Origin: Actinomycetota bacterium
Lineage (GTDB): Bacteria > Actinomycetota > Thermoleophilia > Gaiellales > Gaiellaceae
Reading direction: 5' to 3'
NCBI GenBank assembly: GCA_005885245.1
Contig: VAWR01000056.1
Location: 1-64,000, forward strand
DNA length: 64,000 nucleotides
Shown: piece by piece, positions 15,490-55,281 of the stretch
Position numbering within the stretch: the stretch's first letter is position 1
How the letters are laid out: each line of letters begins with the position of its first letter
Position numbers and translations under genes: made by a program
The notes under the pieces: generated by a model
Seen by the model: only the letters and a program-made list of their open reading frames with translations
Databases searched by the model: none
What the model was told of the DNA's origin: nothing

Positions 15490-16184
15490 CGATCCCGGAA
15501 GCGGTAGCCGACGCCCCGCACGGTGAGGATGTACTCGGGCTCGGCGGGGTCGAACTCGAGCTTCTCGCGGAGATGCCGGACATGGACGTCGATCGTCCGC
15601 GGCTCCCGGTAGTCAGCCCCACCCCACAGCGACTCGAGCAGCATTCGGCGGCTGTAGACGCGTCCCGGATGGGAAGCGAGGATTCTCAGCAGCTCGAACT
15701 CGACATACGTGAGCTGCACCTGAACCCCCCGCACCTCGACCGAACGCCGGGCCAGATCGATCTCGAGCCCGTCCAGGGAGATCAGATCACCGTCGGGACC
15801 GGGCTGCCGCGACGCCGAGGCGCGCCGCAGGAGGGCCCTCACGCGGCTGCGAAACTCGCGGATCGAGAAGGGCTTCGTGATGTAGTCATCCGCGCCCAGC
15901 TCGAGCCCGAGCACCTTGTCGAGTTCGTCGTCGCGCGCGGTCAGCATGATGATCGGCACCTCGCTCTCGGCGCGCAGCCGCTTGCAGACCTCCAGGCCGT
16001 CGAGCTTCGGCAGCATCAGGTCCAGGACGACGAGATCGACGTGCTCGGACTGGAAGAGCCTGAGCGCGTCTTCGCCGTCCCGGGCCTGCAGGACGCGGAA
16101 GCCCTCACGTTCCAGGGGGTACGCGAGGAGCTTCTGGATCGAGTCCTCGTCGTCGACGAGGAGGATGGTCGAGGAGTCGGGCAT
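15486..16184 (-). CDS. OmpR/PhoB-family response regulator
   Basis: A 232-residue regulator with a receiver domain (1-120; acidic pair DD11-12, phosphoacceptor Asp55 in VVLDLMLP, Lys104 in ITKPF) and a winged-helix DNA-binding domain (about 130-230; LTYVEFELLRILASHPGRVYS type). First gene of the regulator-kinase-HtrA run. The divergent M28-like gene starts 70 bases away, so the interval 16185-16253 probably carries both promoters. Confidence 0.96.
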   Translation of the reverse strand: MPDSSTILLVDDEDSIQKLLAYPLEREGFRVLQARDGEDALRLFQSEHVDLVVLDLMLPKLDGLEVCKRLRAESEVPIIMLTARDDELDKVLGLELGADDYITKPFSIREFRSRVRALLRRASASRQPGPDGDLISLDGLEIDLARRSVEVRGVQVQLTYVEFELLRILASHPGRVYSRRMLLESLWGGADYREPRTIDVHVRHLREKLEFDPAEPEYILTVRGVGYRFRDR

Positions 16185-29861: not shown

Positions 29862-30565
29862 AGAAACCGCTCGTTCTCTGGAGCAGTTTCGTCGCAGCGT
29901 TCGCGACCCTGAGCTACTCGCTTCGCTTCACCGAGGGGAAGCCGCCAAAGGATCTGCTCTACAAGTGGTCGACGGCCGCGGGCAACCTCTTCCAGTTCGC
30001 GATCATTGCCGCGATCGTCTACGGAATCGCCGGACTGGGCGAGCGCCGACGGCTCCTGGCGCTCCGACGACCCACATCGTGGCGTCGGTCGGTCAAGATC
30101 GGGATCGGGATCGGGATCGGGATGATCGCACTGAGTTATGTGCTCGCCCCGCTTCTCCATCCCGGCCAGGAGCAGGGAATCACACCCGATACCTGGCAAC
30201 CCGATCACGCTGCGGCCTACGTCGGGAACGGTCTCGTGGTCGCCGTCGTCGCTCCAATCGTGGAGGAGCTCACCTTCCGGGGTCTCGGGTACTCGCTGCT
30301 CGTTCGCTACGGGCGCTGGACGGCGATCGTCCTCGTCGGAATCGCGTTCGGGCTCGCGCACGGTCTCGTCGAGGCGTTTCCCTTCCTCGCCGCGTTCGGG
30401 GCAGGCCTCGCCTATCTCCGCAGCAAGGTCGATAGCGTGTACCCGGGCATGGTCGTGCACGGCCTCTTCAACGCAGTCGCATTGACCGTTGCCGTTTCGG
30501 GCAAACCCCAGGCGGATATTCTGCGCGCGTGCGCCGCGGCCTGGTCTGCGCCTTCGCTCTTCTGA
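29858..30565 (+). CDS. CPBP-family intramembrane metalloprotease
   Basis: A 235-residue membrane protein of the Abi/CAAX protease class. Motif 1 is VEELTFRGLGYSLL (Glu-Glu and Arg, about 133-146), motif 2 FGLAHGLVEAF supplies His, and motif 3 is VVHGLFNAVAL. An unusual tandem GATCGG repeat (30097-30120) encodes IGIGIGIG in one helix. Starts GTG overlapping the HAD stop (GTGA) and overlaps the next gene by 37 bases. The substrate is unknown. Confidence 0.9.
   Translation: MKKPLVLWSSFVAAFATLSYSLRFTEGKPPKDLLYKWSTAAGNLFQFAIIAAIVYGIAGLGERRRLLALRRPTSWRRSVKIGIGIGIGMIALSYVLAPLLHPGQEQGITPDTWQPDHAAAYVGNGLVVAVVAPIVEELTFRGLGYSLLVRYGRWTAIVLVGIAFGLAHGLVEAFPFLAAFGAGLAYLRSKVDSVYPGMVVHGLFNAVALTVAVSGKPQADILRACAAAWSAPSLF
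30097..30120. repeat. hexanucleotide tandem repeat GATCGG x4 inside the CPBP gene
   Basis: Four perfect GATCGG copies, in frame, encoding alternating Ile-Gly in a predicted transmembrane helix. Copy-number change would add or remove two residues without a frameshift. Confidence 0.8.
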
Positions 30566-37348: not shown

Positions 37349-38145
37349 CAGCGGCGCGCCTTCTTCTTGCGCTTGACCCGGCGCGGCGGACCGGGCTGCG
37401 GAGGCTCGACAGCCGCAGGGGCTTGGGCCGCGTCAGGCTGGGCCTCCTTCGGAGGCGTACGCGACGTGCGTTTCTGGGGGGCCGGCGCCGCGACCTTGGG
37501 GATCAGGCGACGGGTGATCAGGCCCTGCCCGACCGTCCACAGGTTCGTGGTCATCCAGTACAGGACGAGGCCGGTCGGGAAGCGCACGATGAACGGAATG
37601 AAGGCGAACGGGAGGATCATCATCAGCACCCGCTGCGACTGCTGCATCGTCCCGGACATGAAGTACGTCGAGGCGAACTGGCTGAGCACGTAGATCGCGA
37701 TCAGGATCCAGCCCGACCAGTGCGCGTTCGCGTGCTGCGCGATGTTCGGCACAAAGTGCAGCCACGAGAGGTTGCCCGGCGGGGGGTGCTTGGCGAAGTG
37801 CCGCAGCGTGTAGAAGAGGCCGATGAAGATCGGCAACTGGGCGACGAGCGGCAGGCACGAGGCCGCCGGATTGATGTTGTTCTCCTTGTAGAACTTCATC
37901 AGCTCTTCGTTGAGCTTCTGGCGGTCGCCCTTGTACTTGCGTTGGATCTCCTTCATCTGCGGCGCGTGGGCCTGCATGTTCTGCATCGAGTGGATCTGCT
38001 TCACCGTCAGCGGGACGAGCAGCATCCGGACGATGATCGTCAGGCCGACGATCGACCACGCCCAGGGCAGGCCGACCGAATGCAGCCCGTTCAGGACGTG
38101 TCTGAGGAGGTGCTCGAGCGGCGTCAGAATGCTCGCGACGATCAC
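37348..38145 (-). CDS. yidC: membrane protein insertase YidC (short Gram-positive type)
   Basis: A 265-residue insertase lacking the large periplasmic domain of proteobacteria. Five helices are visible; the conserved basic-groove region reads WSIVGLTIIVRMLLVPLTV (about 30-48), then QMKEIQRKYKGDRQKLNEEL and FPTGLVLYWMTTNLWTVGQ. A Lys/Arg-rich tail (RRVKRKKKARR) probably contacts ribosomes. It starts GTG overlapping the yidD stop (GTGA). Confidence 0.95.
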   Translation of the reverse strand: MIVASILTPLEHLLRHVLNGLHSVGLPWAWSIVGLTIIVRMLLVPLTVKQIHSMQNMQAHAPQMKEIQRKYKGDRQKLNEELMKFYKENNINPAASCLPLVAQLPIFIGLFYTLRHFAKHPPPGNLSWLHFVPNIAQHANAHWSGWILIAIYVLSQFASTYFMSGTMQQSQRVLMMILPFAFIPFIVRFPTGLVLYWMTTNLWTVGQGLITRRLIPKVAAPAPQKRTSRTPPKEAQPDAAQAPAAVEPPQPGPPRRVKRKKKARR

Positions 38146-51851: not shown

Positions 51852-53132
51852 TCACGTCGGTTCGGGTCGGACCGTGATGACCAGTCCGTCGAGCGACTCG
51901 ACTCGAACTCGTTCGCCGGGGTGAAGCTGCTCGCCGCCGGGTGTTCGCGCCTGCCAGAGCTCGCCGTTGACGTAGACGAGGCCGTTCCCGCGAACCTCGC
52001 CGACGGAGCCGGCGATCATCTGGGGGTCGACCTCGACCGGCTTGTGTCGTACCTGCCAGGCCTTGCTGACCGCGAACGCCCACACGGCGCCGAGCCCGAC
52101 CGCCACGCTGATGACGAGCGGTTTCGACGTGTGGTACGGCGCAGGGGCGTTCTGGAAGAGCATGATCGAGCCGACTGCCAGGCAGATGAGTCCGGCAACC
52201 GTGAGCGCACCGTGACTCGTGACATGCACGTCGGCGACGAGTAGGCCGACGCCGAGGAGCAGGAGTAGCAACCCCGCCCAGCTGATCGGCAGCACCGAGA
52301 AACCGAACAGCGCGGTCACGAGCGAGACGGCTCCGAGTGCGCCCGGAAGTACGACTCCCGGGTGGAAGATCTCGAAGCCGATCCCGGCGAGGCCCGCGAG
52401 GAAGAGCAGCGGCAGGATGTTCGGGTCGAGCAGCGTGTTCAGCACGCGCGCGAAGAAGCTCATGTGGGAGTTGTGGATCTCGGCGCCGGCGAGTTGGCGG
52501 ACGTATCCGCGCGGCTTGGTCTTCACGCCTCGAGCCTGCTTGAGGAGGGCGGGTACCGTCGGGGCGATCGCGTCGATCACGTGCATGCGGAGCGCCTCCG
52601 GCGCTGTCGCGTTCGTGGCCACGCGAACCGCGCGGTCCGCCCACTCGGCGTTGCGGCCGTGACTCTGCGCCAGTGCCCGCAACGAGGCGGCCTCGTGGTT
52701 GATGAGCTTGCGCCGGAGATCCTTGCCGATGTTCTGTCCGCCCGAATCGATCGGTGTCGACGAGCCGATGTTCGTCTCCGGCGCCATCGCGAGGTAGTCC
52801 GCCGCCTCGGCGATCCATACTCCGGCCGAGCCTGCGAACGAGCCGTTCGGGCCGACCCAGACGAGGACGGGGAGCTTCGCGCTCAATTCGCAGAGCACGA
52901 TCTTGTCCTTCGAGTCGAGCAGCCCGCCCGGTGTGTGGAGGACGATCACCGCAGCCGCATAACCGTCCTTCGGAGCCTGGCTCAGCTGATGGCAGAGGTA
53001 GTTCTGCGTGACCGGGTTGACGTCTCCGTCGAAGTGGATCGCGAGAACCTTCGGAGTCGCCGCGCCGGCCGGAGAGGCAAGCGCGAGAAGCGCTCCGAGG
53101 AGCAAAAGTCCCCGCAAAAAGGCGCTCTTCAA
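51852..53132 (-). CDS. NfeD-family membrane serine protease
   Basis: A 426-residue protein: signal/anchor (5-25), a ClpP-like protease domain with nucleophile Ser102 in SFAGSAGVWIAEAADYLAM, four helices (about 225-330), then a C-terminal OB-fold NfeD domain (GSVGEVRGNGLVYVNGELWQ, about 365-384). The typical start is TTG at 53132. The long form (NfeD1b) usually cleaves the C-terminus of its stomatin partner, encoded next. Confidence 0.92.
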   Translation of the reverse strand: MKSAFLRGLLLLGALLALASPAGAATPKVLAIHFDGDVNPVTQNYLCHQLSQAPKDGYAAAVIVLHTPGGLLDSKDKIVLCELSAKLPVLVWVGPNGSFAGSAGVWIAEAADYLAMAPETNIGSSTPIDSGGQNIGKDLRRKLINHEAASLRALAQSHGRNAEWADRAVRVATNATAPEALRMHVIDAIAPTVPALLKQARGVKTKPRGYVRQLAGAEIHNSHMSFFARVLNTLLDPNILPLLFLAGLAGIGFEIFHPGVVLPGALGAVSLVTALFGFSVLPISWAGLLLLLLGVGLLVADVHVTSHGALTVAGLICLAVGSIMLFQNAPAPYHTSKPLVISVAVGLGAVWAFAVSKAWQVRHKPVEVDPQMIAGSVGEVRGNGLVYVNGELWQARTPGGEQLHPGERVRVESLDGLVITVRPEPT

Positions 53133-53217
53133 CTCGTAAGGATTCTATCAGGACAACGCCTGCACCCTTGAGGCCGACAGGATGGGCAGGCACCCTTGTT
53201 TCAGGATCGCCGCCGTC

Positions 53218-53346
53218 ATGAGGCTTCTCCTTGCCGCAGCACTCGCTTTTTTCGCCGCGCCCGCGGCGGCCTTCGCCGATGCGACGCTGACCATGCGCGA
53301 AGTGCCGCTGCACGGCGAGCGCACGTTGGCGGCGTCGGCGGCTTAG
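53218..53346 (+). pseudogene. signal-peptide segment of the amidase gene, ending in an in-frame TAG
   Basis: ATG 53218 opens MRLLLAAALAFFAAPAAAFA, a good Sec signal peptide, then TMREVPLHGERTLAASAA and TAG (53344-53346). The frame continues without shift into FDMVGLHWRGPG of the amidase. Homologues that I recall run straight through this junction. So this is the detached 5' end of one gene, by nonsense mutation, sequencing error or readthrough. ATG at 53182 is an alternative start. Confidence 0.75.
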
Positions 53347-53352
53347 TTCGAC

Positions 53353-55281
53353 ATGGTCGGTCTGCACTGGCGCGGCCCCGGCTCGGTCCAGTTCCGCACG
53401 CGTTCGCAGGCCGGCAGGTGGAGTGCCTGGCGCCGCGCCGATCCCGAGGGTGAGGACCTGCCGGACGTTGGGAGCGCCGAAACGCGGGCCAGCCGCGGTT
53501 GGCGCCTCGGGAACCCGTACTGGACAGGGCCGTCCAATCGCATCGCGTATCGGCTTCACGGCCGCGTCCTCCGACTGCGCACCTACTTCGTCCGGAGTCC
53601 GGAGGAACGCATCCCGTTACGGCGCGTGTCCATGGCGGGCTCGCCGCCGATCCTCTCCCGCTTCGCCTGGGGGGCGAACGAGGCGATCAGGCGAGCGCCG
53701 CCGAGCTACGCGCCGAGCGTGCAGTTCGCGCTGGTTCATCACACGGCCGGGACGAACTCGTACACGGCGTCGCAGTCGGCGGCGATCGTGCGCGGCATCG
53801 AGGTCTACCACGTCCAGGGAAACGGCTGGAACGACATCGGCTACAACTTTCTCGTCGACAAGTACGGCCAGGTTTTCGAGGGCCGATACGGCGGAGTGGA
53901 CAAGAATGTGATCGGCGCGCACGCCGAGGGTTTCAACACCGGTTCCGTCGGAGTTGCGATGCTCGGGACCTACGGGTCGGCTGCGCCCCCCACCGTGGCG
54001 CGGAACGCCCTGGCCAGTCTGCTCGCCTGGCGGCTCGACCTTGCACACGTCGACCCGAGGTCGACCCTCACGTGGGTCTCGGGTGGAAACGCGAAGTTTG
54101 CGGCGGGCGTACCGGTGATCTTGCGGGCTGTCTCGGGTCACCGTGACACGGGCTTCACCAGCTGTCCGGGGGCCGCCCTCTATGCTCAGCTCGGCGCAAT
54201 CGCCCAGAAGGCCGCTTCGGTCGGGCTCCCCAAGCTCTACGGCCCCGCCGTGCACGGCAGTCTCGGCGGCCAGGTGCGCTTTCAGGCGCGTCTGAGCCAG
54301 GCGCTTTCGTGGACGGTGACGGTGGCCGACTCCACGGGCGCGGTCGTCGCGACGGGAACCGGGACGAGCCAGGTCGTCGACTGGACGTGGGACGCCTCGA
54401 CGGTCACGCCCGGTCTGTACGCCTGGACGATCGCGGCCGGCGATTCCCTCCGCCCGGCAACCGGAACGATCGGTGCGAAATCCGTCGCCCTCGCGCTCAC
54501 CTCGGCGGCTGCAACCCCGCGGACGATTACCCCGGATGGCGACGGCCAGACGGACTTCAGCCAGATCTCGTACACGTTGAGCGCGCCCGCGACGGTGACT
54601 GCGACGCTACGCGGTCCAGACGGAGGCGAGCTTTCCGTGCTGTTCTCGCAACGACGTCAACCCGGCAAACAGTCGTTCCGCTTCGCCGCCGCGGGTGTCG
54701 CCGACGGCCGCTACGAGATCGTGTTGAGCGCGACCGATGGAAAGCAGACGGTGACCTCCATCGTGCCCGTGCTCGTCGACCGCACCGTTCGGCTCTTCGC
54801 GGCGGCCCCGGCGGCCTTTTCTCCGAACGGAGACGGGGTGGCCGATGAGCTCGCTTTCAGCTTCGAGCTCACCCAGTCCGCGTCCGTCCACCTCGACATC
54901 GCACAGGCGGGCAAGACGGTCGCGTCCGTCTACTCCGCTGACCTGCAGCCGGGCTCGCAGAGCGTCACATGGACCGGGGCAGGCGTGAAGGACGGCAAGT
55001 ACGCCGGAGTCCTCACTGCGACCAACGACGTCGGCTCGGTCGTGCACACCCTCCTGTTCCGGATCGACCGAGTGCCTCCGCAACTGCGTGTGCTCTCGTT
55101 CCCGCGACTGCGCTTCCGGGTCAGCGAAGCGGCGATGATCCGCCTGACGCTCAACGGCAGGCTCCTGACCAGAACCGTACGGGCGGGCATCTTCTCCTTC
55201 CGCAGCGCGCGTGTCCGCAGCGTGCGTATCTTCGCGAGGGACGCTGCCGGGAACCTCAGCCGGACGCTGAGGTATCCGTAG
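53353..55281 (+). CDS. N-acetylmuramoyl-L-alanine amidase (PGRP type) with FlgD-like repeats, lacking its own signal peptide
   Basis: A 642-residue body. N-terminal beta region VGLHWRGPGSVQFRTRS; amidase domain (about 108-285) with zinc His in FALVHHTAGTN, substrate residues GAHAEGFNTGSVGVAML and Cys in SGHRDTGFTSCPG; then two or three FlgD/Ig-like repeats (TPDGDGQTDFS and SPNGDGVADELAFSF). It cleaves the sugar-peptide bond of peptidoglycan. The ATG at 53353 is only the first downstream of the in-frame TAG and gives a protein with no export signal. It overlaps birA by 26 bases. Confidence 0.85.
   Translation: MVGLHWRGPGSVQFRTRSQAGRWSAWRRADPEGEDLPDVGSAETRASRGWRLGNPYWTGPSNRIAYRLHGRVLRLRTYFVRSPEERIPLRRVSMAGSPPILSRFAWGANEAIRRAPPSYAPSVQFALVHHTAGTNSYTASQSAAIVRGIEVYHVQGNGWNDIGYNFLVDKYGQVFEGRYGGVDKNVIGAHAEGFNTGSVGVAMLGTYGSAAPPTVARNALASLLAWRLDLAHVDPRSTLTWVSGGNAKFAAGVPVILRAVSGHRDTGFTSCPGAALYAQLGAIAQKAASVGLPKLYGPAVHGSLGGQVRFQARLSQALSWTVTVADSTGAVVATGTGTSQVVDWTWDASTVTPGLYAWTIAAGDSLRPATGTIGAKSVALALTSAAATPRTITPDGDGQTDFSQISYTLSAPATVTATLRGPDGGELSVLFSQRRQPGKQSFRFAAAGVADGRYEIVLSATDGKQTVTSIVPVLVDRTVRLFAAAPAAFSPNGDGVADELAFSFELTQSASVHLDIAQAGKTVASVYSADLQPGSQSVTWTGAGVKDGKYAGVLTATNDVGSVVHTLLFRIDRVPPQLRVLSFPRLRFRVSEAAMIRLTLNGRLLTRTVRAGIFSFRSARVRSVRIFARDAAGNLSRTLRYP

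Follow-up and report, generated by a model that had tools for sequence, protein, structure and literature searches.

The window, by which we mean the whole stretch of 64,000 nucleotides analysed here, contains a gene for a putative secreted cell-wall amidase that is interrupted by a TAG codon at positions 53344-53346. This raises the question of whether the codon reflects a mutation, a faulty base in the assembly, or a stop that the organism puts to use. On the forward strand, translation from the ATG at 53218-53220 gives MRLLLAAALAFFAAPAAAFADATLTMREVPLHGERTLAASAA, the TAG and then FDMVGLHWRGPG in a single reading frame. In agreement with the initial annotation, which had described an in-frame TAG splitting the signal peptide from the amidase body, the codon lies 42 codons past this ATG and between these two parts of the protein. 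In relatives, the protein continues unbroken with a sense codon at this position. Beyond it the frame stays open from 53347 to a second TAG at 55279-55281, and the body ORF (53353-55281) encodes 642 amino acids.

The 5′ part of the gene (53218-53343, forward strand) has 42 codons and comprises the ATG, a typical signal peptide and the beginning of the mature N-terminus. It is truly coding, as TLTMREVPLHGERVLAATSTQFDMVGLHWQGPG of the nearest relative (locus L004) aligns with it gap-free across the stop; this relative (G009) reads ATLTMREVPLHGERVLAATSTQFDMVGLHWQGPG, and the equivalent in the window is ATLTMREVPLHGERTLAASAA*FDMVGLHWRGPG, with the stop given as an asterisk. Since the protein of the relatives is unbroken and the alignment has no gaps, the two ORFs of the window represent two parts of what was ancestrally a single gene. 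The same alignment rules out that the TAG merely marks a place where two ORFs meet by chance. Upstream of the amidase lies a divergent gene (51852-53144, reverse strand), which looks like a putative NfeD/ClpP-type membrane protease. It adjoins the amidase gene in G009, G002 and G001 as well, and the order of the two genes is conserved with these relatives.

The remainder of the gene (53347-55281, forward strand, with its normal end at the TAG 55279-55281) carries an Amidase_2/PGRP domain and FlgD-type Ig repeats. Pfam matches in the body are found for Amidase_2 (PF01510, E=1.7e-14, 54.7 bits against a curated cut-off of 26) and for the FlgD-type Ig repeats (PF13860, E=2.7e-9). The amidase part aligns to solved peptidoglycan recognition proteins, among them the PGRP domain 4zxm (E=9e-22), and retains the H, Y, H and C motifs; VHHTAG, IGYNFLV and GHRDTGFTSCPG are presumably the zinc-binding and catalytic motifs. 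By its predicted architecture of signal peptide, Amidase_2 domain and FlgD-Ig repeats, the gene product is a predicted secreted N-acetylmuramoyl-L-alanine amidase.

The codon was compared across 52 distinct homologues from two collections of related actinobacterial genomes, mostly metagenome-assembled genomes (MAGs) of Gaiellaceae/Thermoleophilia. None of the 52 has a stop at the column of the TAG; all display a sense codon, CGC or CGG in most cases. The nearest homologue (G009, 77% identical over 642 residues) has CAG, which is one base away from TAG, and the second-nearest has GAG. Inspection of the same locus in relatives, which the initial annotation had proposed as a check, thus gave a sense codon throughout. 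Judged by these homologues, the stop is private to the source genome, a soil-bacterium draft of about 90% completeness in 213 contigs. Neither a second copy of the amidase gene nor any other Amidase_2 gene was found in this roughly 90% complete genome. Almost all related genera retain the amidase gene. One other broken copy was seen among the relatives, the homologue of G006 (L031, contig G006:C157), which has an internal deletion with a change of frame in the Amidase_2 region, at about 1522-1528. A second in-frame TAG in the source genome, noticed in G000:C82:9931-10476 (reverse strand; L002), was rejected as a parallel case, being the ordinary end of a different gene that bears FlgD-Ig repeats.

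The body downstream of the stop provides information on the age of the change. Compared with the nearest relative it displays a dN of 0.157 and a dS of 1.01 (dN/dS 0.156), much like the dN/dS of 0.140 obtained for the closest pair of intact relatives. When amino-acid changes were counted in relative-rate comparisons using four outgroups (62 versus 49, 49 versus 49, 47 versus 42, and 23 versus 41), no consistent excess private to the window lineage emerged, and the 642 codons of the body contain no further stop or frameshift. Among the 5778 single substitutions possible in the body, 155 would produce a stop; in the absence of selection, the branch as a whole should have gathered about 26 new stops, and none is observed. 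Hence, loss of constraint, if real, can account for no more than about 11% of the branch; the bound is rough, as the estimate is a simple one that assumes equal rates and the dS is large. Relaxed selection marks older pseudogenes and need not be present in a newly arisen nonsense allele; it was not detected in the body. These codon comparisons show that purifying selection acted on the body up to the very recent past, and the continued constraint leaves a stop that is very recent, a base that is in error, or a stop that is tolerated by way of read-through.

The last of these, programmed or regulated UAG read-through, would mean that a fraction of ribosomes makes the full-length exported amidase and that the stop tunes secretion of a lytic enzyme; regulated read-through controlling export was one of three options in the initial annotation. 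An intact and constrained body would fit such a mechanism, as would the placement of the stop at a point where reading through yields a normal preprotein. However, a very recent change predicts an intact body equally well, and the stop is absent from the homologues described above. In addition, release factor 1 (RF1, prfA) is complete in the source genome (449 bits, over the cut-off), a CUA anticodon occurs in 0 of its 41 tRNA genes (genome about 90% complete), and no PylS was found above the cut-off in this genome of about 90% completeness, where a single weak match, far below the cut-off, is a fragment of lysyl-tRNA synthetase. The RNA downstream of the TAG displays no stimulatory structure, as it folds slightly worse than shuffled sequences (z of +0.9 and +1.1). 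With conservation, a suppressor tRNA, PylS and a structural signal all lacking and RF1 present, control of export by regulated read-through did not hold up, and we regard it as very improbable. The narrower proposal of read-through at a regulated low rate in one species, with termination efficiency controlling the export of the only Amidase_2 amidase, appears more improbable still.

Reassignment of TAG to an amino acid in the source organism would explain the single in-frame TAG, which is the only point in its favour. However, TAG terminates 16 of the 45 window genes with a visible end, including the amidase gene itself. Together with the presence of RF1 and the lack of both a CUA-anticodon tRNA and PylS, this makes reassignment a negligible prospect and bears out the view taken in the initial annotation, namely that TAG ends other genes of the stretch and has kept its meaning.

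The first ATG after the stop (53353-53355, forward strand) may serve as a re-initiation site. Under this explanation the locus would be a two-part gene, in which translation stops at the TAG and restarts at ATG 53353 to yield an adaptive intracellular amidase. The ATG lies only 6 bases past the TAG, near enough for termination-reinitiation, and the product, having no signal peptide, would remain in the cytoplasm. However, the start is not conserved, being ATG in 22 of the 52 relatives and CTC in 23, and the sequence upstream of it has no clear Shine-Dalgarno motif. Furthermore, we know of no evident substrate in the cytoplasm for a peptidoglycan amidase with FlgD-Ig repeats. A conserved internal start was rejected in view of the CTC codons, and an adaptive two-part gene seems highly unlikely. 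We regard the ATG as incidental, some re-initiation at it being conceivable.

The stop is therefore most likely an ordinary private nonsense change in a metagenome-type assembly, either a genuine mutation of recent date or a mistake in the consensus. These were the other two options of the initial annotation (recent nonsense mutation or sequencing error), and a private stop, a CAG in the nearest relative and unrelaxed selection fit both. We give somewhat better than even odds to the view that one base changed recently and created a stop codon in a secreted amidase gene that is normal in other respects, resulting in an allele without special function. A serious possibility, to which we assign a lower probability of rather more than one in three, is that, in this metagenome-derived draft, the TAG results from a wrong base in the consensus or assembly or from the base of a minority strain, and that living cells of the organism encode a normal amidase with a sense codon at this position. 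A single base change is enough for this, the draft is fragmented into its 213 contigs, and almost all of the publicly named relatives are MAGs obtained from soil or sediment. The broken homologue of G006 indicates that assemblies of this kind do contain damaged copies. The gene itself bears no sign of relaxed selection, and its strong conservation favours an error over a real mutation; as the genome yielded no other Amidase_2 gene and related genera keep this one so widely, its loss may be costly, which makes a base error likelier.

On the other hand, direct evidence of an error is absent. As a control, neighbouring genes of the window were compared with the syntenic contigs of six relatives, and no other convincing broken gene was found in the window by this comparison. 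Apparent internal stops near 37440, near 30433 and at 15789-15888 were dismissed as shadow frames or as stop-to-stop extensions that precede the true start codon; the stop near 37440 belongs to a shadow frame across a YidC-like gene joined to the Jag-like gene that follows it. No damage is apparent in any other window gene for which close relatives exist, which argues against a general excess of errors in the window and tips the balance slightly towards a genuine recent mutation and away from a base error.

In a cell bearing the nonsense allele, RF1 would stop ribosomes at codon 43 and a peptide of 42 residues would be released. Output of the exported amidase would presumably be little or none; a trace of product might arise by re-initiation at ATG 53353 and would stay cytoplasmic for want of a signal peptide. 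The allele would then be an ordinary nonsense allele or a young pseudogene.

Private single stops are to be expected in draft genomes, and the case in itself matters little. It is mainly of use as a worked example, in which the state of the codon in relatives serves to tell functional read-through apart from a new nonsense mutation or an erroneous base. Were read-through real, a lytic enzyme would be controlled in an unusual way.

Compared with ordinary nonsense alleles and young pseudogenes, the window gene shares the private in-frame stop, the intact downstream frame, unrelaxed selection and the sense codon in all relatives, and in the assembled sequence it does not differ from them. With programmed stop-codon read-through it shares an in-frame stop before a conserved body, but it differs in that the stop is not conserved, suppressor tRNA and structural signal are lacking, and RF1 is present. 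As a member of the Amidase_2/PGRP family (PF01510), in the actinobacterial secreted form with PF13860 repeats that occurs across related genera, it shares the signal peptide, the domain, the H/Y/H/C motifs and the FlgD-Ig repeats, and differs from these amidases by the break at codon 43.
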